Assembly: GCA_902592985.1 (NCBI GenBank)
Contig: CACJGR010000005.1
Location: forward strand, 1-42,082
DNA: 42,082 bases
From: an uncultured Pelagibacteraceae bacterium
GTDB taxonomy: Bacteria > Pseudomonadota > Alphaproteobacteria > Pelagibacterales > Pelagibacteraceae
Direction of reading: 5' to 3'
Positions 858-33,360 of this stretch are shown here, one piece after another; the first letter of the stretch is position 1, and the number at the start of each line of letters is the position of its first letter. Under the pieces are notes generated by a model, which saw only the letters and a program-made list of their open reading frames with translations, was not told the DNA's origin and searched no databases. A program made the translations under genes and the position numbers.

Positions 858-1592
858 ATGCTTAATAATAAAACTATTTTAGTTACAGGTGTAGGAAAAG
901 GATTAGGATATGACATGTTAAATACAATCGTTTCATACAATGGATTTGTATATGGAATTACTAGATCAAAATCAGATATAAAAAAATTTAAAAAGATAAA
1001 GAATTGCAAGGTTTTTTTCGGAGATGTTACAAATACAAAAATTTTTGAAAAAATAATAAAGCAATCAGAAAATGATGAAAGAACAATATCTGGTCTTGTA
1101 AATAATGCCGGAGAACGTCAAAGATTAAATTTTAACAATATTTCAAAAAATAAACTTAAAAAACTCTTTGAAATTAACTTTTTTTCAGTTTTTGAGAATA
1201 TGAAAATTTTTTCAAACTATTTAAAAAAGAAAAAAATCAGTGGATCAATTGTAAATATAGGATCAATTGTAGGAAATAATGGATTTTCTGAGTTAACTGG
1301 ATATGCATCTAGCAAAACAGCTTTAATTGGATTAACTAAATCTTATGCGGTAGAAATGGCCAAGGACAATATTCGAGCAAATTTAATCAATCCAGGATTT
1401 ATAAAGACTTCCTATTTTAATAAATTTAAAAAAAGAAAAAAATTATATGATTGGACAATTAGCAGAATACCTCAAAAACGATGGGGCAATCCTAATGAAA
1501 TAAGTCAACTAACATGTTTTCTTTTATCTGATTTATCCAGCTATATAACAGGAACAAGTATAAATATTGATGGAGGATGGACAGGAAGTTAA
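858..1592 (+). CDS. Short-chain dehydrogenase/reductase (SDR)
   Basis: A classical SDR of 244 residues from the ATG at 858; a TTG at 837 would add seven unconserved residues. Visible motifs are the cofactor-binding TGVGKGLG near the N terminus, NNAG in mid-protein, the catalytic Ser in VNIGSIVG, YASSK (Tyr-x3-Lys) and a C-terminal INIDGGW. These make it an NAD(P)-dependent oxidoreductase of the FabG-like type. The kdsB-like gene starts three bases after its stop, so the two are surely co-transcribed. By context it probably oxidises, reduces or epimerises a sugar or ulosonic acid destined for CMP activation. The substrate is unknown. Confidence 0.88.
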   Translation: MLNNKTILVTGVGKGLGYDMLNTIVSYNGFVYGITRSKSDIKKFKKIKNCKVFFGDVTNTKIFEKIIKQSENDERTISGLVNNAGERQRLNFNNISKNKLKKLFEINFFSVFENMKIFSNYLKKKKISGSIVNIGSIVGNNGFSELTGYASSKTALIGLTKSYAVEMAKDNIRANLINPGFIKTSYFNKFKKRKKLYDWTISRIPQKRWGNPNEISQLTCFLLSDLSSYITGTSINIDGGWTGS

Positions 1593-1595
1593 ATT

Positions 1596-2339
1596 ATGAA
1601 AGTTTTAGGATTAATTCCATCAAGAATGGGCTCTAGAAGATTACCCGCTAAAGCGTTACTCCCAATTAGCGGATTACCCTTAGTTGTACACACATATAGA
1701 AGAGCAAATTTATCTAAACTTATTGACAAAATTTTGATTTGTACTGATAGCAAAAAAATTGTTTCAATTGCAAAAAAATATAAATCAAAAGCAATTTTAA
1801 CATCTCCTTATCATTTAAATGGAACTGAACGTATAGCGGAGGCTTTTGTAAAAGAGAAAAAAAAATATGACTTTATTTTAGATATTCAAGGAGATGAACC
1901 TTTGATTAGTCCATATCATATTGATGAAGTGATAAAATATCACAAAAAAAATAATGATGCTGATATTATACTTCCAACTTTAAAATTAAAATTGCCAGAT
2001 AACCCAAGTATAGTAAAAGTTGTTACAAACAAAAAGAATGAAGTTTTATATCTTTCAAGATCAAAAATACCTTATGAAGCTAAATCTAAATGTAAATTTT
2101 TTTTAAAACATTTGTCAATTATTTCATTTAAACCAGAAGCTCTAATTAAATTTGCAAAATCTAAGCCTAGCATTCTTGAAAAAACGGAAGATGTTGAGCT
2201 TTTAAGAGCTTTAGAAATTGGTTTAAAAATAAAAACTTTAAACTTAAAAGGTGATAGTTTTTCAGTTGATATAGCAGAAGATTATAGAAGAGCAAAAGAC
2301 CAAATGAGTAAAGATAAATTTTTTAAATTTTATAAATAA
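1596..2339 (+). CDS. kdsB: CMP-ulosonic acid synthetase, KdsB-like
   Basis: Belongs to the 3-deoxy-manno-octulosonate cytidylyltransferase family (247 residues, normal length). The N terminus GLIPSRMGSRRLPAKAL matches the CTP-binding loop. DIQGDEPLI carries the conserved QGDEP, LSRSKIPYE the SRSxIPY segment, and VDIAEDYRRA the C-terminal metal-binding Asp motif. KdsB couples CTP to Kdo to give CMP-Kdo. The family also contains enzymes for 8-amino-Kdo and other ulosonic acids. The segment KHLSIISFKPEAL departs from the usual H-x-G-I-Y pattern. Placed between an SDR and a DHQ-synthase-like gene, it may activate a modified sugar rather than housekeeping Kdo; no kdsA or kdsD is seen in the window. 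Confidence 0.82.
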   Translation: MKVLGLIPSRMGSRRLPAKALLPISGLPLVVHTYRRANLSKLIDKILICTDSKKIVSIAKKYKSKAILTSPYHLNGTERIAEAFVKEKKKYDFILDIQGDEPLISPYHIDEVIKYHKKNNDADIILPTLKLKLPDNPSIVKVVTNKKNEVLYLSRSKIPYEAKSKCKFFLKHLSIISFKPEALIKFAKSKPSILEKTEDVELLRALEIGLKIKTLNLKGDSFSVDIAEDYRRAKDQMSKDKFFKFYK

Positions 2340-2347
2340 CTATATAG

Positions 2348-3478
2348 ATGTCAGTTAACACAATTTCATATGAAGTTGATAATGAAATAAATAAAGTAAT
2401 ATATTCTAAAGAGATTGATAAATTTCTCATTAAAGACATAAATGATTTAAAATCTGATCAAAAGATACTATTTATTTATGATAAAAATATATCAAAAAAA
2501 TTTATTGATGGTCTTAAGACAAAACTTAAATTAACAGGAAACATAGTTTTTTTTAAAGAGATTGAAGGGAAAAAAATAAATAAAAATTTAAACAATCTAC
2601 TAAAATTATTTGATGAACTTATAAAAAATAAATTTACAAAAAATTCTATAATAATTTCTTGTGGCGGAGGTGTGGTGGGTGATCTTTGCGGCTTAGTTAG
2701 CTCTTTATATCTTAGGGGCACTATCTATTTTCATATCCCAACTACTATGACTGCCATAGTTGATAGCTGCATAGGAGGAAAAACTGGTATAAATTATAAA
2801 GGTATAATAAATTCTTTGGGCAACTACTATCATCCCAAGAGAGTTTATATTTCGGAGAGAATTATTACTGATATTCCAAATAGAGAATTTTTTTCAGGCT
2901 TTGCAGAAATAATAAAGTGTGGTCTTATTGGTAATAAAAAAATTATTGGTTATTTAAATAAAGATAAGTATTTATTTAAAAGAAAAAACATTCAAAATTT
3001 ATCAAAAATTATTCTTGAAACATTAAAAACTAAAATAAGTTTTTTTAAGAATGATATTAAAGAAAAAAATAAAAGATTATATCTAAACTTTGGTCACACT
3101 TTTGCACATGCCATGGAAATGACTACTGATAAATACTTAAAAAAAGATTTTTTAAGGCATGGAGAAGCTGTAGGTCTGGGCATGTTATGTGAAATAATGA
3201 TGTCTCAAAACACGAATGAAAAAAAAAATTCTAATAATCTTTATTGTATGACTAAACAATTGCTTGAAAAATATAATTTACCAACTAAGCTTAAAATCCC
3301 TAATAAACTTGGCAGGAAAATACACTCAGGAATATACGATGGTGTATTCTTAGATAAAAAGACAAAAAATAAATATCCAAGGTTTATCTCTTTAAAAAAA
3401 ATATGCTCACCAACAATAGAGGAGATCAAAGATTTTGGAGCACTTAATGATTCAATATACAAGATAACTCAAAATTGA
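2348..3478 (+). CDS. 3-dehydroquinate-synthase-like sugar phosphate cyclase
   Basis: A 376-residue member of the AroB/sugar-phosphate-cyclase superfamily. NAD-binding GGGVVGD lies at 106-112, PTT at 131-133, D139, GGKTGIN at 143-149. The likely metal ligands are E187 (in GFAEIIK), H250 (in LNFGHTFAHA) and H271 (in HGEAV). DHQ synthase cyclises DAHP, a 3-deoxy-2-ulosonate phosphate. Most catalytic residues are kept, but the usual GKN after GIN reads IIN (153-155), so the DHQS lysine is lost there. Embedded between kdsB-like and a glycan gene, it is more likely a specialised cyclase for a surface sugar than the housekeeping shikimate enzyme, though it could be a second aroB. Confidence 0.8.
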   Translation: MSVNTISYEVDNEINKVIYSKEIDKFLIKDINDLKSDQKILFIYDKNISKKFIDGLKTKLKLTGNIVFFKEIEGKKINKNLNNLLKLFDELIKNKFTKNSIIISCGGGVVGDLCGLVSSLYLRGTIYFHIPTTMTAIVDSCIGGKTGINYKGIINSLGNYYHPKRVYISERIITDIPNREFFSGFAEIIKCGLIGNKKIIGYLNKDKYLFKRKNIQNLSKIILETLKTKISFFKNDIKEKNKRLYLNFGHTFAHAMEMTTDKYLKKDFLRHGEAVGLGMLCEIMMSQNTNEKKNSNNLYCMTKQLLEKYNLPTKLKIPNKLGRKIHSGIYDGVFLDKKTKNKYPRFISLKKICSPTIEEIKDFGALNDSIYKITQN

Positions 3479-5028
3479 TTAAACATAACAAACTTACAAT
3501 ATTAGATTTATCTAAAGACGAAGACATTATTTTGTCTGATTCTATAATCTATCAAATTTCATATGGAATAACAAAAATTAATAATTGCAAAATACTTAAA
3601 AAAAAATTTTTTTCAGAGGCTAAATTTAAAAAATATAAAAATAAAATAAATAATCCATTAATTAATTTTTATAAGTTTTTATCCAAAAAAAAAATTCACA
3701 ATGATTTAATTCCTCTTGAAATATTAAATCAAAGGAATGATAAAACTCAAATATTTAATAAAATTTTTTATTTATTAGAAATTAAAAAATATGTATCAAA
3801 AAACAAAATTAATAATGTTGAAATAATAACAGACGATGAAAATTTTTATGATGTTTACAAATCATTGAAAATTAAAAATCTTTCAGTTTTAAACTTATCT
3901 AAAAAAAAAAAAAATAACATAAACTTAACTTATTTTTTTAAAACGCTGTTTTTTTATTTAAAAACATTGATATTTGTTTGTTTTATAAAGTTTTTTTTAA
4001 AAGAAAAAAAAATTAAAAAAAAATTCTCAGAAGGATGCTTAACACTTTATCCATTATTTTTTAAAAAAAATAAAAATTTATTTTATAGCAAAAAATTACT
4101 CAATTTAAATTTTCAAATTACTGATGAAACTCACTTGAGCAATACTCTTTTTAAAAATTTAAATTTAGCGTTAAAAGTAAATAAAATTGAAAATACAATT
4201 TTAGTAGAAAAGTACATTAGAATTGGATGGATTATAAAAAATTTTTTTATAGGATTAAAAAATATTAAGCTAATTCGCGAGTCTGAAAAATTTAAATTTA
4301 AAATAGATGGTATTAATTTTTCTCCTTTATTTAAAAATTTATTTTTAATTTCATTGTTAAATCTAAATAAACTTTCGATATATGAAAATGCACTAAACGA
4401 AATATTAACAATTTTTAAATTAAAAAAATTTCATTATTTTCTTTTTGAATACAATTTTGGTTATTATTTATCCAACATAATAAAAAAAATATCTCCAAAC
4501 ACTAAGCAAATTGGATATCAACATGGAATATACTCTGAGAGGATTATGTGGCAAAATTTTTCTCAAAAAATTAAACTTACAGATTATTTTCCAAATGAAA
4601 TAATCTGTAAGTTTAAATATAGTTTAGATTCTTATAAAAAAAATTTTAAAAATATTAAAATTGTTTTAAAGAAATCGCATAATGTTTTAACAAATAGTTT
4701 ATTTGAAAAAAGTGATAAAAAATATCAAGTTTATTTAGGCTTACATGATTGCTACAATATATTAAATGAATTGAGAAATCTTAAAAATAATAAAAAATTT
4801 GTTTTAAATTTACACCCCAAAATGAAATATAAAAATGTTTTAAAATTAAATAAAAATTTGGTTTTTAGTGATAAAAAAACTAATACAAATGTAACAGGTA
4901 AAGTATTATTATCTACCACCTCCACAATGCCTTATCAGTTTTATCCAAAAAAGAAATTTAATATAATTTTACCAAAAAATATAATACCTTTAAACCCAAA
5001 GCTGTTTGATAAGTTTTTTTTTAAATAA
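3475..5028 (+). CDS. Unknown GT-B-like surface glycan protein with QHG and HP motifs
   Basis: I do not recognise the family with certainty. The TTG start overlaps the preceding stop (TTGA), and no ATG occurs in frame for a long way, so TTG initiation is likely. The N-terminal half is lysine-rich with a hydrophobic stretch near residues 152-174. The C-terminal half has GYQHGIYSE (347-355), LNLHPK (445-449) and a Ser/Thr cluster STTST (480-484). A His-Pro followed by a Ser/Thr pair is the nucleotide-binding signature of bacterial sialyltransferase-like GT-B enzymes that use CMP donors, and similar motifs occur in capsule transferases. By inference it may transfer the product of the three genes before it. 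A 19-bp inverted repeat lies inside it (see repeat). Confidence 0.6.
   Translation: MIKHNKLTILDLSKDEDIILSDSIIYQISYGITKINNCKILKKKFFSEAKFKKYKNKINNPLINFYKFLSKKKIHNDLIPLEILNQRNDKTQIFNKIFYLLEIKKYVSKNKINNVEIITDDENFYDVYKSLKIKNLSVLNLSKKKKNNINLTYFFKTLFFYLKTLIFVCFIKFFLKEKKIKKKFSEGCLTLYPLFFKKNKNLFYSKKLLNLNFQITDETHLSNTLFKNLNLALKVNKIENTILVEKYIRIGWIIKNFFIGLKNIKLIRESEKFKFKIDGINFSPLFKNLFLISLLNLNKLSIYENALNEILTIFKLKKFHYFLFEYNFGYYLSNIIKKISPNTKQIGYQHGIYSERIMWQNFSQKIKLTDYFPNEIICKFKYSLDSYKKNFKNIKIVLKKSHNVLTNSLFEKSDKKYQVYLGLHDCYNILNELRNLKNNKKFVLNLHPKMKYKNVLKLNKNLVFSDKKTNTNVTGKVLLSTTSTMPYQFYPKKKFNIILPKNIIPLNPKLFDKFFFK
4571..4616. repeat. Perfect 19-bp inverted repeat, 8-nt loop, inside a CDS
   Basis: The left arm TTAAACTTACAGATTATTT (4571-4589) is followed by TCCAAATG and then its exact reverse complement (4598-4616). 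It falls in codons 366-381 of the 3475-5028 gene. Even allowing for high AT content, 19 uninterrupted pairs are far beyond chance in 42 kb. It lacks a following T tract, so it is not a standard terminator. It could be an mRNA structure, a footprint of a template-switch mutation, or a relic of a small mobile palindrome. Confidence 0.95.
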
Positions 5029-5034
5029 ATTGAT

Positions 5035-5814
5035 ATGTTTGATTTACCTAAAAATTTAGATTTGTTTGATGTTAACATCGATAAACCTTTTACAGTTTTT
5101 GAAAAATATAATTTTTTTAAAAAACATCATTATGAAAAATTATATGATGAATTTCCGCCAGAAGAATATTTTATCAAAAGACATGAACTTGGAAATAAAA
5201 AATATTTTAATAGCAAAGATTTAAATTTTAATAAATTTTTACAAACTTCAAAATCTTGGAGTGAATTCTATGACATAGTAAATTCCGAAAATTTTTTAAA
5301 TGAAATTTTTAACCTTTGTAAAAAAAATTTAAATAAAATTAATGAAAGAGAAAAAATAAAAAAAATTCAATTCAAGCAAGTTGTTAAAACAGATTTTATA
5401 AGTAAATTATTAAGAAAATTTAAACAATTATTTGGAATATATGAAGTAAGATTAGCTTTTGAATTTTCTTTGTTAAAAAATGGAGATTTTATTCCACCTC
5501 ATAATGATACAGAGAATAAACTTGTATCTTTAATGGCATATTTTCCTCAACAAAATCAGTTAGTAGAAAAAGATCTTGGTACCAATTTTTTTATTTGTCA
5601 TAAAGAAAACAAAGATGTTTGGAGAGGTGATATGATGGATAAGATAAATTCTAAAGAATTTTACAATAATTATAAGATATTTTATAAGTCAGAGTTTAAA
5701 AAAAATAAATTAGTAGGTTTTTTAAAATCAAAAAATTCTTGGCACGATGTCTCAACAATAAATACCATTCTAAATAACAGAAAATCTTTAAATATTAATT
5801 TGTTTAAGATCTAG
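5035..5814 (+). CDS. 2-oxoglutarate/Fe(II)-dependent oxygenase family protein
   Basis: 259 residues from ATG, six bases after the preceding gene. The C-terminal half shows a double-stranded beta-helix signature: PPHNDTENKLVSLMAYF supplies the His-x-Asp metal pair, NSWHDV the distal His, and NRKSLNIN an Arg suited to bind 2-oxoglutarate. Members hydroxylate or otherwise oxidise small molecules, proteins or sugars; in glycan clusters they are thought to modify sugars or lipid-linked intermediates. The first 100 or so residues are lysine-rich and unassigned. It ends tail to tail with the GMC gene with a 4-base overlap. Substrate unknown. Confidence 0.75.
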   Translation: MFDLPKNLDLFDVNIDKPFTVFEKYNFFKKHHYEKLYDEFPPEEYFIKRHELGNKKYFNSKDLNFNKFLQTSKSWSEFYDIVNSENFLNEIFNLCKKNLNKINEREKIKKIQFKQVVKTDFISKLLRKFKQLFGIYEVRLAFEFSLLKNGDFIPPHNDTENKLVSLMAYFPQQNQLVEKDLGTNFFICHKENKDVWRGDMMDKINSKEFYNNYKIFYKSEFKKNKLVGFLKSKNSWHDVSTINTILNNRKSLNINLFKI

Positions 5815-7232
5815 TTTATTAATTTACTTAAATGATCTGCAAGTCTAATAGCCAATTGAGTTAAAGTAAGAGTTGGATGGGCATGTCCAGCAGTAACAAA
5901 AACAGAGCTTCCGCTTACATATAAATTTTTAGTATTGTGAACCTTTAAATTTTTATCTACTACAGAATATTTTTCATTATTTCCCATTCTAGTTCCTCCC
6001 ATATGATGATAACCATTCATATGATTATATTTTATGTCATTAAAAAGAAATTCTTCTGCAGCTAGTCTTCCTAAATTTTTTAAAATTAAAAAACTTGCTA
6101 AACTTTCAACAATTTTTCTTGAAGAGTTTCTGACATTTTCTGATCTTTTCCAATAAAGAACTGGAATTGGTATGCCATTAACATCTTTTTCATTTCCCAA
6201 ACTTATTCTATTATAGTATTCAGGTTTTTGGTCAGACAACAGGTTTACACTAAAACTATAGTTGTTGTAATCATCTTTATCAAAAAAATATTTGTTTATT
6301 ATTGATGGAGCTAAACATTTCAGTTGTTTTAAAAATTGATTTTCATTTGTCTTATTATTTTTTGATATTCCAATATTTATAGAAGTATTTAGAACTTTTA
6401 GTTCATTTAAAAAATTAAAATTTGGAGAAAAAGAAAAAGAATAATTACAATTCACATCTATATATTTGTTTAAATTATTTTTAGTTAAATAATCGTCAAA
6501 GTTTTTTTTAAATAAAATTCCTTCAGCTACTTTATGGTATGGATGGTCCATCCAGTAATTGCCAATAGGTAAATTTTTATTAATTAGAGTTTTGTTTTTA
6601 TGCCTGCTCCATAACAGCAATCTTGAATTTTCTATTCCACCGGCCGCAAGTATAAAATATTTCCCTTCAACATTTTTTAATTTGTCTTTATAAACACTTG
6701 CGCTAATAACTTTTCCATTTTCTCCATTAAATTGAATAAATGGACAGTTAAGAATTAATGTTATTTTTTTAGATTTTTTAATTTTTTCAAAATATTTTTC
6801 TTTAAATTTTGCATTAGACCAGTTGTAATTAATTAAATCTATGTTTTGATTAAATTTTTTTTTAAAAAAATTACCTTCAATATTTAAATTTTTATATGAT
6901 TCTTTTTTAAATTTTTTTAAATCTACTTTATTAATTGGCCAACTTTCAAAATCATATTCATCAAGCTCAATACAATTTCCACCCCAATGGCCAGTTGTTC
7001 CTCCAAATTGTCTTAGCCTGCATATAGAAAGATCAGGAAAATTATCACCCACTATTTTACCTTTGTAAAAGTTTTGTGAATTTTGGTCAGGGTTAGATTT
7101 TCCAGCTTCTATAACTATAGAAGAAATACCTTTTTTTTCTAGATGTAGAGCAATTGATAAGCCAGCAGGTCCGCTACCAATAATTACAACATTATTATAT
7201 TTTGGGACTTTACTAAAATCAGCTAAGATCAT
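5811..7232 (-). CDS. GMC-family FAD oxidoreductase
   Basis: 473 residues. The N terminus VVIIGSGPAGLSIALHLEKKG is the FAD-binding GxGxxG fold. The C terminus has YHHMGGTRMG, LYVSGSSVFV and AGHAHPTLT, the conserved GMC block with the catalytic His region. Relatives include glucose, choline and fructose dehydrogenases and membrane-linked sugar dehydrogenases that pair with a small Tat-exported subunit. The ATG at 7232 lies within the last codons of a 51-residue ORF (7219-7374) that carries a Tat-like start, so the pair is probably translationally coupled. In this island it probably oxidises a sugar alcohol group. No signal peptide is seen on the GMC protein itself. Confidence 0.88.
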   Translation of the reverse strand: MILADFSKVPKYNNVVIIGSGPAGLSIALHLEKKGISSIVIEAGKSNPDQNSQNFYKGKIVGDNFPDLSICRLRQFGGTTGHWGGNCIELDEYDFESWPINKVDLKKFKKESYKNLNIEGNFFKKKFNQNIDLINYNWSNAKFKEKYFEKIKKSKKITLILNCPFIQFNGENGKVISASVYKDKLKNVEGKYFILAAGGIENSRLLLWSRHKNKTLINKNLPIGNYWMDHPYHKVAEGILFKKNFDDYLTKNNLNKYIDVNCNYSFSFSPNFNFLNELKVLNTSINIGISKNNKTNENQFLKQLKCLAPSIINKYFFDKDDYNNYSFSVNLLSDQKPEYYNRISLGNEKDVNGIPIPVLYWKRSENVRNSSRKIVESLASFLILKNLGRLAAEEFLFNDIKYNHMNGYHHMGGTRMGNNEKYSVVDKNLKVHNTKNLYVSGSSVFVTAGHAHPTLTLTQLAIRLADHLSKLIN

Positions 7233-30561: not shown

Positions 30562-31650
30562 ATGAAAATTTGTTCAACTTCTGAAAATAAACAATCTGAA
30601 AAAAGAATTTCAATCACACCAGAGATAGCAAAAAAATATATTAATTTAGGTTTGGAAGTCTCTTTACTAGAAAATTATGGTTTACATTTAGGTTATGATA
30701 ACAATCTATATAAATCACTTGGAGTAAATATTATTAAAGATGAAAAAGAGTTAATTAAAAAATCTGATATAATTGTTCAGCTAGCTTTATTGTCAGATGA
30801 TAAAACTTCTTTAATTAAAGAAAACCAGATATTAATAGGATTATTTGATCCTTATAATAATAAAGATAAAATTAAAAATTTATCAAAAAAAAATATCAAT
30901 ATTTTTTCTTTAGAATTGCTTCCAAGAATAACAAGAGCGCAGTCGATGGATGTACTTTCGTCTCAAGCTAATCTAGCAGGATATAAAGCAGTTATAGATT
31001 CTTTTTCAAATTTTAAAAAAGCGATACCAATGATGATGACTGCTGCAGGAACAATTCCACCAGCAAAAGTATTAGTAGTTGGCGCTGGAGTTGCAGGACT
31101 TCAGGCTATTGCAACAGCTAAAAGAATGGGAGCAATTGTATTTGCTACTGATGTTAGAACGGTCTCTAAAGAACAGGTTGAAAGTTTAGGAGGAAAATTT
31201 TTAACAGTTGAGGGATCAGAAAATCTAGAGACCGAGAGCGGATATGCAAAAGAAACTTCAGAAGAATTTAAAAAAAAACAAGAAGAACTATTAGGTGAGA
31301 CTTTGAAAAAAATTGATATTGTTATATGCACTGCTTTAATTCCAGGAAAGAAAGCACCTTTAATCATTAAAGAGTACATGATAAATAATATGCAATCAGG
31401 TTCTATTATTTACGACTTAGCAGCGGTTCAAGGGGGCAATACAGCTTATACAGAAGTAGATAAAATTATAGATAAGAATGGCATAAAAATTATAAGTGAA
31501 GCCAATATTCTTAATAAATTGCCAGTTTCTGCCTCTAGTTTATACTCGAAAAATGTATTTAATTTTGTTTCAAACCTTTATGACAAAGAAAATAAAAAAA
31601 TTAATATTAATTTAGAAGATGAAATTATTGCAAAAACAATAAATAGATAG
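30562..31650 (+). CDS. pntAA: NAD(P) transhydrogenase alpha subunit, part 1 (domain I)
   Basis: 362 residues. KRISITPEIAKKYINLGLEV and LLPRITRAQSMDVLSSQANL are shared with alanine dehydrogenase; VLVVGAGVAGLQAIATAKRM is the NAD-binding motif, followed by FATDVRTVSKEQVESLGGKF. It is the soluble NAD(H)-binding domain I of proton-translocating transhydrogenase, which uses the proton gradient to reduce NADP with NADH. The three-gene split form is known from Rhodospirillum and other alphaproteobacteria. The next subunit starts four bases after its stop. Confidence 0.95.
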   Translation: MKICSTSENKQSEKRISITPEIAKKYINLGLEVSLLENYGLHLGYDNNLYKSLGVNIIKDEKELIKKSDIIVQLALLSDDKTSLIKENQILIGLFDPYNNKDKIKNLSKKNINIFSLELLPRITRAQSMDVLSSQANLAGYKAVIDSFSNFKKAIPMMMTAAGTIPPAKVLVVGAGVAGLQAIATAKRMGAIVFATDVRTVSKEQVESLGGKFLTVEGSENLETESGYAKETSEEFKKKQEELLGETLKKIDIVICTALIPGKKAPLIIKEYMINNMQSGSIIYDLAAVQGGNTAYTEVDKIIDKNGIKIISEANILNKLPVSASSLYSKNVFNFVSNLYDKENKKININLEDEIIAKTINR

Positions 31651-31654
31651 AATT

Positions 31655-31963
31655 ATGGAAATAGATCCTTTTATATTCAGACTAAGCATTTTTATATTAT
31701 CAATTTTTATAGGATACTACGTGGTATGGAGTGTTACTCCATCTTTGCACACTCCATTAATGTCTGTGACAAATGCTATTTCTTCAGTAATTATAGTCGG
31801 AGCTATAATTGCTGGTTTATCAGGAAGTTTAGAAAATGTTTTTGATATTCCAAATATCTTTGGTTTTTTTGCAATATTTCTAGCAGCTATAAATATTTTT
31901 GGAGGTTTTTTAGTAACTCAAAGAATGCTCCAAATGTATAAAAAGAAAAAAAAAGATAAATAA
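31655..31963 (+). CDS. pntAB: NAD(P) transhydrogenase alpha subunit, part 2 (membrane)
   Basis: 102 residues with three or four hydrophobic helices. VVWSVTPSLHTPLMSVTNAI is a nearly invariant segment of the PntA membrane domain, and GGFLVTQRMLQMYKKK is its typical C terminus. It forms part of the proton channel (domain II) with PntB in the inner membrane. The short length is normal for the split form. It sits between pntAA and pntB with gaps of four and two bases, so the three are one transcription unit. Confidence 0.94.
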   Translation: MEIDPFIFRLSIFILSIFIGYYVVWSVTPSLHTPLMSVTNAISSVIIVGAIIAGLSGSLENVFDIPNIFGFFAIFLAAINIFGGFLVTQRMLQMYKKKKKDK

Positions 31964-31965
31964 AT

Positions 31966-33360
31966 ATGTCTGCAAATTTATCAGCAATATTTTATCTAGT
32001 TTCAGGAGTATTATTTATTTTAGCTTTAAGAGGATTGTCTTCTCCCGAAACATCAAGGCGAGGAAATTTTTTTGGAATTCTTGGAATGACAATTGCCATT
32101 ACTGTAACTTTTTTATCTATAGGAAATTTTTCGTCCGGGTTTATTTATGTTTTGATTTTTTTATTAATAGGAGGTTCAATTGGAGCTTTTGTAGCATTTA
32201 AAATCCCAATGACTGCTATGCCAGAATTAGTTGCTGGATTTCATAGCTTAGTAGGATTAGCAGCAGTTTTTGTTGCTATATCAGCTTTCTTAAATCCTGA
32301 AGTTTTTAACCTTGGAACGGTAGGAAATATAAAGCTTGCTAGTTTGATTGAAATGTCAATTGGTGCTGCAATAGGAGCAATTACTTTTTCAGGATCAATA
32401 ATAGCTTTTTTAAAACTTCGAGGAATAATGTCAGGATCGCCAATCACCTTTAAAGGACAGCATTATATTAACTTATTATTAGGTTTATCAATTATAGTAT
32501 TAATTTTTTATCTTTGCAAAACACAATCAGACAGCATCTTTTGGGGAATAATTGCAATATCTTTTTTATTAGGATTATTATTAATAATACCAATCGGAGG
32601 TGCTGATATGCCAGTAGTTATTTCTATGTTAAATTCATATTCAGGTTGGGCAGCAGCTGGAATTGGTTTTACGTTAGAAAATACAGCTTTGATAATTACT
32701 GGAGCTTTAGTCGGTTCATCAGGAGCAATCTTATCTTATATAATGTGTAAAGGTATGAATCGTTCGTTTTTCAATGTTATTCTTGGAGGATTTGGAATTA
32801 CCGAACAATCATCGTCAAACAAAGGAAAAGAACAAAAGCCAGTAAAAAGTGGTAACGCTGAAGATGCAGCTTTTTTAATGAATAGTGCTTCTTCAGTTAT
32901 AATTGTACCTGGTTATGGAATGGCAGTTGCACAAGCGCAGCATGCATTAAGGGAGATGGTAGACAAACTGAAAAAAAATGATGTTAGAGTTTCATATGCG
33001 ATACATCCTGTTGCAGGAAGAATGCCAGGGCATATGAATGTGTTGTTAGCTGAAGCAAACGTTCCTTACGATGAAGTTTTTGAATTAGAGGAAATAAATA
33101 ATGATTTTTCTAATGCAGATGTTGCATTTGTAATTGGTGCAAATGATGTGACAAACCCAGTGGCAAAAACAGATCCTGAAAGCCCAATATACGGAATGCC
33201 AGTTTTAGATGTGGAAAAATGTAAATCAGTTTTATTTGTAAAAAGAAGTTTATCTCCTGGTTATGCCGGCATTGATAACGATTTGTTTTATAGAGAAAAT
33301 ACCTTAATGTTATTTGCTGATGCAAAAAAAATGACAGAAGATATAACTAAAAATTTATAA
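31966..33360 (+). CDS. pntB: NAD(P) transhydrogenase beta subunit
   Basis: 464 residues: about nine membrane helices (domain II), then a soluble NADP-binding domain III. Helix region markers are GLSSPETSRRGNFFGILGM, MTAMPELVAGFHSLVGLAAV and GGADMPVVISMLNSYSGWAA. Domain III has VPGYGMAVAQAQHALREM, HPVAGRMPGHMNVLLAEANV and VIGANDVTNPVA, the NADP pocket. It completes the proton-driven NADPH-forming enzyme. It ends 20 bases from the convergent tRNA gene. Confidence 0.96.
   Translation: MSANLSAIFYLVSGVLFILALRGLSSPETSRRGNFFGILGMTIAITVTFLSIGNFSSGFIYVLIFLLIGGSIGAFVAFKIPMTAMPELVAGFHSLVGLAAVFVAISAFLNPEVFNLGTVGNIKLASLIEMSIGAAIGAITFSGSIIAFLKLRGIMSGSPITFKGQHYINLLLGLSIIVLIFYLCKTQSDSIFWGIIAISFLLGLLLIIPIGGADMPVVISMLNSYSGWAAAGIGFTLENTALIITGALVGSSGAILSYIMCKGMNRSFFNVILGGFGITEQSSSNKGKEQKPVKSGNAEDAAFLMNSASSVIIVPGYGMAVAQAQHALREMVDKLKKNDVRVSYAIHPVAGRMPGHMNVLLAEANVPYDEVFELEEINNDFSNADVAFVIGANDVTNPVAKTDPESPIYGMPVLDVEKCKSVLFVKRSLSPGYAGIDNDLFYRENTLMLFADAKKMTEDITKNL

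Follow-up and report, generated by a model that had tools for sequence, protein, structure and literature searches.

What would a KdsB-like cytidylyltransferase and a DHQ-synthase-like cyclase make together when their genes stand side by side with that of a reductase? The question is raised by a stretch of 42,082 nucleotides (“the window”) from an uncultured Pelagibacteraceae bacterium (GCA_902592985.1, contig CACJGR010000005.1, positions 1-42,082, forward strand). An earlier note on this DNA had described four genes with gaps of 3 and 8 bases and an overlap of 4 bases, and we confirm this arrangement at 858-5028: the genes encode an SDR, a KdsB-like cytidylyltransferase, a DHQ-synthase-like cyclase and a GT-B-like protein (GTX). 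We refer to the first three as the triad. Together with two neighbors, the genes are:

858..1592, + strand: SDR, predicted pathway ketone reductase, first triad gene, 244 residues from the ATG at 858 (PF13561, 1.2e-47; PF00106, 8.3e-41)
1596..2339, + strand: KdsB-like cytidylyltransferase, predicted to transfer CMP to an acid, second triad gene, 247 residues (PF02348, 9.1e-45)
2348..3478, + strand: DHQ-synthase-like cyclase in a clade of its own (tree and residues), third triad gene, 376 residues (TIGR01357 and TIGR04425 both under cut-off)
3475..5028, + strand: GT-B-like protein GTX, predicted CMP-donor transferase, 517 residues from a TTG start, with His447-Pro448 and Ser480; outside the conserved core
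5035..5814, + strand: neighbor, weakly 2OG-Fe(II)-oxygenase-like, 259 residues (PF13640, E 0.023, under cut-off)
5811..7232, - strand: neighbor, GMC-type oxidoreductase (PF05199, 2.3e-19)

The SDR, KdsB-like and cyclase genes form a conserved unit

The pairing of kdsB-like and aroB-like genes, which the earlier note proposed to act with a reductase as a unit in glycan islands, is not confined to the window. We found 28 loci with the window's cyclase clade, 23 of them from named Pelagibacteraceae, and all 28 have both the pair and the SDR, in the order SDR-KdsB-DHQS. In every case the SDR gene comes immediately before the KdsB-like gene; the SDR frame is short in L050 (133 residues) and L056 (175 residues). 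No other gene interrupts the triad in 27 of the 28 loci, where the gaps between the KdsB-like and cyclase genes range from -8 to 33 bases. Loci L038-L041 were left out as copies of L045, L054, L052 and L058, and because the members of the pairs L049/L050 and L060/L062 differ little or not at all, the 28 loci amount to about 26 independent ones. The distances of the three triad proteins are correlated (Mantel r 0.68-0.81 over 28 loci and 0.42-0.71 over 25 close loci), with none of 2000 permutations reaching the observed r. Two regular expressions for the Tyr-x3-Lys pair of the SDR match 13 and 25 of the 28 proteins, and combined they miss only L108. The conserved unit is window 858-3478, three genes of surface-glycan islands. 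It has neither a KdsA- nor a NeuB-type synthase; in 4 of the 28 triad loci the fetched flanks contain a NeuB-like cluster (named by eye).

With a profile we also searched 349 genomes of the phylum, 200 of which match at 1e-60. The best 29 loci add no triad beyond the window's own; that one aside, all of these are closer to AroB, and their short flanks show no sign of a KdsB-like gene. Cyclase relatives also occur on viral contigs (84, of which 80 were kept), none closer to the window's cyclase than to AroB. These viral cyclases form a clade other than the triad's (11 rows in the tree), and an SDR-like gene lies directly upstream of this different DHQ-synthase-like clade in 71 of the 80 contigs. 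Three viral cyclases that we scored fit TIGR04425 better than AroB, yet fall under the TIGR04425 cut-off. Among phage and plasmid records (15 and 109), all matches are under 60% identity. Our literature searches found no paper on the topic, judged partly by title, and none on the cyclase and KdsB residues described below.

GTX is an exchangeable neighbor

The earlier note had counted the fourth gene as a member of the cassette. Its GT-B family lies beside the triad in only 2 of 28 loci, and GTX is an exchangeable neighbor. Among the same 28 loci, the 259-residue gene has a close relative in L044 only (61%), as does the GMC-type oxidoreductase a relative (58%). In line with the further suggestion that GTX has motifs like those of CMP-dependent GT-B enzymes, His447-Pro448, a sequence match to the HP motif of GT38, GT52 and GT80 sialyltransferases, is invariant in 59 rows. 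The D/E-D/E-G motif of these families is absent, the invariant Glu325 lying in FEYNFG with no E-G there. The HP motif is described for bacterial sialyltransferases in passages of PMC2169525 and PMC5517516. A Foldseek search with GTX gave calicheamicin glycosyltransferases, not CMP enzymes, in its first four rows, and a GTX profile search against PDB sequences found nothing at E 1.

The KdsB-like protein is set apart from housekeeping KdsB

The KdsB-like protein scores over the cut-off of the KdsB subfamily model NF003952 (227.8 bits, cut-off 193) and under those of TIGR00466 kdsB (147.7, cut-off 155.2) and NF009905 (220.7, cut-off 255). Its best match among solved structures is 1gq9 (E 3.7e-34), which we take to be the capsule-type enzyme KpsU. 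The catalytic residues are those of KdsB and KpsU: R10, K19, Q98, D100 and H172 are identical in 28/28 triad and 23/23 housekeeping rows, the latter including one gene twice (L164 = L135). Other positions differ from KdsB and KpsU. The Gln of LEQLR, present in all 23 housekeeping rows, is replaced by Leu202 in all 28 triad rows; a Gly in 23/23 housekeeping rows is Ser174 in 28/28 triad rows; and a Tyr in 21/23 housekeeping rows is Phe178 in the triad. The unit differs further in having no KdsA partner and a housekeeping-type kdsB elsewhere. In the window's own genome this second KdsB gene lies before a pheA-like gene (named by eye; G000:C14), and the window's gene is not the sole kdsB, the case that would have told against the earlier note.

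In a tree from which three repeated KdsB rows were dropped, housekeeping KdsB forms one clade (100/99). The triad rows fall short of a strict clade because they take in a second KdsB-like gene from L067 (98/96 for the group that includes it). When the KdsB-like protein is compared with 61 genomes, its top three hits by E-value, at 100, 63 and 44% identity, all belong to triads. A non-housekeeping KdsB-like gene stands with an aldolase-like gene in three other islands (L162, L165 and L166), the first of which also has a PF00793 gene; the triad cyclase thus occupies the place taken there by an acid-making enzyme.

The cyclase forms its own clade and retains DHQ synthase residues

Against TIGR01357 (aroB) the cyclase scores 262.9 bits, under the cut-off of 305, and the triad cyclases of L042, L066 and L108 score 292.8, 281.9 and 257.8 bits. 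The triad cyclases form one clade separate from AroB with support of 100/98 (26 of 94 rows were dropped from the careful tree). The earlier note's distinction between this cyclase and housekeeping AroB is borne out by the clade and by a second DHQ synthase of the own genome, encoded after an aroK-like gene (named by eye; G000:C1). Each of the six triad genomes that we searched encodes a further DHQ synthase besides the triad's, two in all, and in none is the triad cyclase the only one.

In its checked catalytic and DAHP-site residues, the cyclase is nonetheless like AroB, and its best solved-structure match is 3clh (E 3.3e-41). D112, R123, D139, K145, N155, E187, K190, K229, R243, L246, N247, H250 and H271 are the same in 28/28 triad cyclases and 53/53 AroB-like rows; H254 is His in 26/28, and K338 is Lys in 27/28 with one gap. 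We took the roles of all checked positions from DHQ synthase structures, in which K229 and R243 presumably hold the DAHP carboxylate. Cyclases of the EEVS and DOI synthase type have lost the carboxylate residues of DHQ synthase, a loss absent from the triad cyclases, where K229, R243 and L246 are retained in 28/28. Unlike AroB, the triad cyclases have Lys at residue 76 in 26/28 rows (Val and Ile in two), a position that we take to lie at the NAD site and that is Glu or Asp in 53/53 AroB-like rows. They also have Tyr160 in place of a Phe, and invariant His162, Leu244 and Arg270.

A proposed carbocyclic CMP-activated acid and its rivals

The triad very probably encodes a dedicated route to a CMP-activated acid. 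Our preferred reading of the product, held tentatively, is a carbocyclic quinate-type acid made from DAHP for predicted surface-glycan transfer by the neighboring GT-B enzyme. The cyclase would use ordinary DHQ-synthase chemistry to strip the phosphate from DAHP and would close the ring to give a 3-dehydroquinate-type ketone, which the SDR would reduce. The KdsB-like enzyme would then place CMP on the tertiary hydroxyl, whose immediate neighbors, a carboxylate and a CH2, are those found at the anomeric center of a 3-deoxy-2-ulosonic acid, and the GT-B protein could move the ring to a glycan in the manner of a pseudoglycosyltransferase. It is possible, if rather speculative, that marine bacteria have in this way a pseudo-sugar branch of the shikimate pathway, building a carbocyclic, quinate-like analogue of a 3-deoxy-ulosonate, activated with CMP in just the way that Kdo and sialic acid are, into surface glycans via a pseudoglycosyltransferase.

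Against the carbocycle stands a CMP ester of a tertiary alcohol without a ring oxygen to stabilize departure, and the switch of residue 76 to Lys is left unexplained. The conserved unit has no olefin-supplying dehydratase. Searches with PF00793 and PF01474 found no DAHP synthase in the own genome (assembly 83% complete), and PF01474 occurs in only 3 of 6 triad genomes. Because the DHQ-synthase residues are kept, the cyclase might only make dehydroquinate that the KdsB-like enzyme never touches.

A carbocyclic donor cannot form an oxocarbenium ion, and an open 3,7-dideoxy-ulosonate is therefore a serious rival. On this account, which we judge unlikely, the unit makes CMP-activated 3,7-dideoxy-heptulosonic acid: the phosphate of DAHP is removed with the ring left unclosed, the SDR reduces C6 of the 2,6-diketone, and the KdsB-like enzyme activates a true hemiketal. 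The substrate would be of a known kind for KdsB and for a possibly sialyltransferase-like GT-B enzyme, and the constant presence of an SDR next to the KdsB-cyclase pair (28/28) would be explained. On the archaeal route, dehydroquinate is reached by way of 3,7-dideoxy-hepto-2,6-diulosonate. In DHQ synthase, formation of the enol is followed almost spontaneously by ring closure, which the SDR would need to outpace; the DHQ-synthase residues kept in the cyclase likewise argue against an open chain.

The earlier note had the cyclase act on a Kdo-like acid, which we do not favor because the retained residues, unchanged at 13 checked positions, are those of DHQ synthase. Here the cyclase would take a phosphorylated 3-deoxy-ulosonic acid other than DAHP, for example Kdo-8-phosphate, and the pathway would end in an altered Kdo. 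3-Deoxy-ulosonic acids are known substrates of KdsB relatives, and Kdo-8-phosphate is probably available: PF00793, which covers KdsA and one type of DAHP synthase, has matches in 51/61 genomes (the own genome is a miss), and triad genome G121 (100% complete, 9 contigs) has such a match and a second KdsB. By chemical reasoning, however, pyranose Kdo-8-phosphate carries a hydroxyl, not a phosphate, on the carbon beta to the oxidized C5, and the DHQ-synthase reaction thus does not fit this substrate. The sugar-side motif of the KdsB-like protein also differs from that of housekeeping KdsB, and we regard this alternative as decidedly doubtful.

Very unlikely is a split into two outputs, with SDR and cyclase giving a quinate-like decoration or extra dehydroquinate and the KdsB-like enzyme ordinary CMP-Kdo for a capsule linker: at the catalytic positions checked, each enzyme agrees with its housekeeping relative, and the NF003952 cut-off is passed, but the strict order in 28/28 loci with correlated divergence, the glutamine of LEQLR lost throughout and the triad origin of all three best KdsB-like matches speak against it.

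Relation to known systems

Relative to known systems, the triad is a variant of CMP-ulosonate pathways and not a new kind of system. In validamycin-type pathways, the cyclase substrate is sedoheptulose 7-phosphate, which has no carboxylate. Genes for a sugar phosphate cyclase (ValA), a nucleotidyltransferase (ValB) and a GT-B pseudoglycosyltransferase (ValL) are clustered in such pathways, as a part of PMC12041759 describes, and the triad shares this logic of cyclase, nucleotide activation and GT-B transfer. With GDP-valienol as its donor, ValL makes both C-N and C-O bonds and does not pass through an oxocarbenium ion, possibly assisted by the olefin of this donor, according to the same part of PMC12041759. 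Validamycin-type pathways differ in using GDP instead of CMP, a GT20-type transferase and another substrate class. EboD, annotated as 3-dehydroquinate synthase, belongs to an uncharacterized clade of sugar phosphate cyclases and is encoded in the ebo operon, which is conserved; its partners are others (a UbiA-superfamily prenyltransferase and hydrolases), with no KdsB-like protein among the six genes as given in a passage of PMC5133447. TIGR04425, an AroB-related putative sugar phosphate phospholyase (cyclizing), is likewise a DHQ-synthase relative outside AroB, but the window's cyclase reaches only 188.6 bits of its cut-off of 400, and the viral relatives are another clade with different neighbors.

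Discussion

Ulosonic acids such as Kdo and the sialic acids are known to be activated with CMP, and sugar phosphate cyclases are known from the making of shikimate and cyclitol antibiotics. All three triad proteins are of normal length and come from enzyme families that have been studied well, which opens the question to direct testing with known substrates. Pressure from phages and predators is believed to underlie the variation of the hypervariable surface islands of SAR11, as discussed in PMC4053759. If our reading is true, a conserved unit joining CMP activation to a cyclase would give SAR11 bacteria charged building blocks of a new class for their surface.

Gene content and setting of the cassette

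The window belongs to a 1.14-Mb assembly, 83% complete, in which it is contig 5. The earlier note had read four genes at its start, and our gene calls recovered all four with the same gaps and overlap:

858-1592, + strand: SDR, first of the four
1596-2339, + strand: KdsB-like cytidylyltransferase, 3-nt gap after the SDR gene
2348-3478, + strand: DHQ-synthase-like cyclase, 8-nt gap after the KdsB-like gene
3475-5028, + strand: GT-B-like protein, 4-nt overlap with the cyclase gene

The genes are surrounded by glycosyltransferase, epimerase and methyltransferase genes; an excerpt of PMC4053759 describes such regions as hypervariable in SAR11. Transhydrogenase-like pntAB genes (30562-33360, named by eye) apparently delimit the glycan region at its far side, and members of the pntAB clusters are also present in loci L045, L061, L067 and L069.

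The SDR, KdsB-like and cyclase genes form a conserved triad

We scanned named genomes with a cyclase profile, which gave 275 relatives, and retained the best 78 loci. By best BLAST match, 26 of these hold a cyclase closer to the window's than to the second DHQ synthase of the window's genome (own AroB), and 52 show the opposite. Together with the window and L042 (genome G121), the 26 make up 28 triad loci. In all 28, an SDR gene and a KdsB-like gene lie 5' of the cyclase gene on the same strand, and in 27 there is no called gene (at least 90 aa) within the triad; in L051, genes for a radical SAM protein, an aminotransferase and a GT-B-like protein are inserted before the cyclase gene. No KdsB match was found in any of the 52 AroB-like loci. 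By record title, the named loci come mostly from Pelagibacteraceae or Candidatus Pelagibacter (23 of 26), the others being from another alphaproteobacterium (L066), a Prochlorococcus single cell (L108) and a MAG labelled Euryarchaeota in its record (L051). Among 200 relatives, the cyclase occurs in at least six genomes, five at 49-100% identity and G121 at 37%, the last confirmed by its neighbour genes; of the matches at or below 42%, those examined singly were G121 and G004, which is AroB-like.

The genes flanking the triad vary from locus to locus, so the triad behaves like a module. The GT-B-like gene, which the earlier note had counted as part of the cassette, is a changeable neighbour. 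Its GC content is 17.5%, versus 25-26% for the triad genes (window, 23.8%), and it may thus have a different history. Clusters c7, c8 and c6 (radical SAM/SPASM protein, aminotransferase, GT-B-like protein) recur beside the triad in L057, L059, L061 and L064 and lie inside it in L051 (3644-6938), possibly as a tailoring module. In L067, a second KdsB-like gene (ORF 6, 44% to the window's) directly precedes the triad SDR gene.

Housekeeping copies are encoded elsewhere

The window's genome encodes a second DHQ synthase directly 3' of an aroK-like gene and a second KdsB 5' of a pheA-like gene (aroK and pheA assigned by eye). It also carries a NeuA-like gene at another site. In each of the six triad genomes searched, the triad cyclase is one of two DHQ synthases. 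A PF01474 DAHP synthase is present in three of the six, including the fullest, G121; a profile search found none in the window's 83% complete genome. That assembly also has no match to PF00793, which covers KdsA and one DAHP synthase type. Since 51 of 61 kin-group genomes match PF00793 (the window's own counted as a miss), this absence may reflect incomplete assembly.

The triad cyclase is distinct from AroB

Triad cyclases form one clade against AroB-like and viral sequences (SH-aLRT 98, 94 rows), and a second tree of 68 rows supports the same clade at 100/98. The window cyclase scores below both the AroB and TIGR04425 cut-offs. Thirteen checked positions carry the same residue in triad cyclases and 53 AroB-like rows. 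Four residues are found in all 28 triad cyclases: Tyr160 (Phe in 48/53 AroB-like rows), and His162, Leu244 and Arg270 (in 3, 2 and 2 of the 53, respectively). Lys76 occurs in 26/28, where every AroB-like row has Glu or Asp. We take residue 76 to be equivalent to the Glu at the NAD site of DHQ synthase, and so regard an altered cofactor preference as a possible lead.

In a separate set of 80 viral contigs (L200-L279), a DHQ synthase relative belongs to a different cyclase clade. An SDR-like gene lies directly 5' of it in 71, and clusters resembling cytidylyltransferases, HpcH and ThDP enzymes (the latter two named by eye) occur in 31, 36 and 44, respectively. Three viral cyclases were scored; all fit TIGR04425 better than AroB and fall below the TIGR04425 cut-off. 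These contigs appear to carry a virus-borne cyclase module. In four other SAR11 islands (L163, L167, L168, L169), a DAHP-synthase-like gene (PF00793) adjoins a shikimate-dehydrogenase-like gene (PF08501 and PF01488 in L167, by eye in the others) amid glycan genes, with NeuA-like genes near those of L163 and L167; this is possibly another glycan-linked shikimate-type module.

The KdsB-like protein differs from housekeeping KdsB

R10, K19, Q98, D100 and H172 are common to the 28 triad and 23 housekeeping KdsB rows, and E201 and D225 are retained in 27 and 26 triad proteins. Three housekeeping residues are replaced in all 28: Gln212 of the LEQLR motif by Leu202, Gly184 by Ser174, and Tyr188 (21/23, otherwise Phe) by Phe178. 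Both solved KdsB proteins in the alignment also carry LEQLR. By position, these changes would fall in the C-terminal domain, which an excerpt of PMC3149649 gives as Kdo-binding in A. aeolicus KdsB (residues 100-210). Among 12 other non-housekeeping KdsB-like rows, read at the Gln site for 11, nine have Met, Ile or Leu and two a gap, suggesting that loss of this Gln marks KdsB paralogues generally and not one substrate.

A KdsB-like gene also stands beside an HpcH-type aldolase gene in islands L162 (by Pfam), L165 and L166 (both by eye); L162 contains a PF00793 gene too, and its KdsB-like frame is just 201 aa. From these islands, a KdsB paralogue adjoining its acid-making enzyme appears to be a pattern, in which the cyclase would take the enzyme's place in the triad.

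A proposed route to an activated carbocyclic acid

DHQ synthase chemistry on DAHP would close a ring whose C1 bears a hydroxyl and a carboxyl group, with CH2 on either side. By chemical reasoning, C1 would be the carbocyclic counterpart of the anomeric centre in 3-deoxy-ulosonic acids. The SDR would be an expected partner, acting on the ketone left in the ring; the viral cyclases, too, mostly have an SDR-like gene as their immediate 5' neighbour. Cytidylation of the tertiary hydroxyl by the KdsB-like enzyme would be the next step. The Kdo-like substrate proposed earlier is less likely than DAHP.

The weak point of this mechanism is the final transfer, since a carbocycle without a ring oxygen cannot form an oxocarbenium ion. 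An excerpt of PMC12041759 describes ValL, a GT-B enzyme that moves NDP-activated carbocycles onto nitrogen or oxygen, perhaps assisted by an olefin. Should carbocycle transfer prove impossible, the next most likely route would have the SDR trap an open 2,6-diketone, with KdsB activating 3,7-dideoxy-heptulosonate. The triad is a real and conserved cassette, unnamed as far as our searches went. We tentatively favor the carbocyclic route, by which it would supply a CMP-activated carbocyclic acid to a surface glycan.
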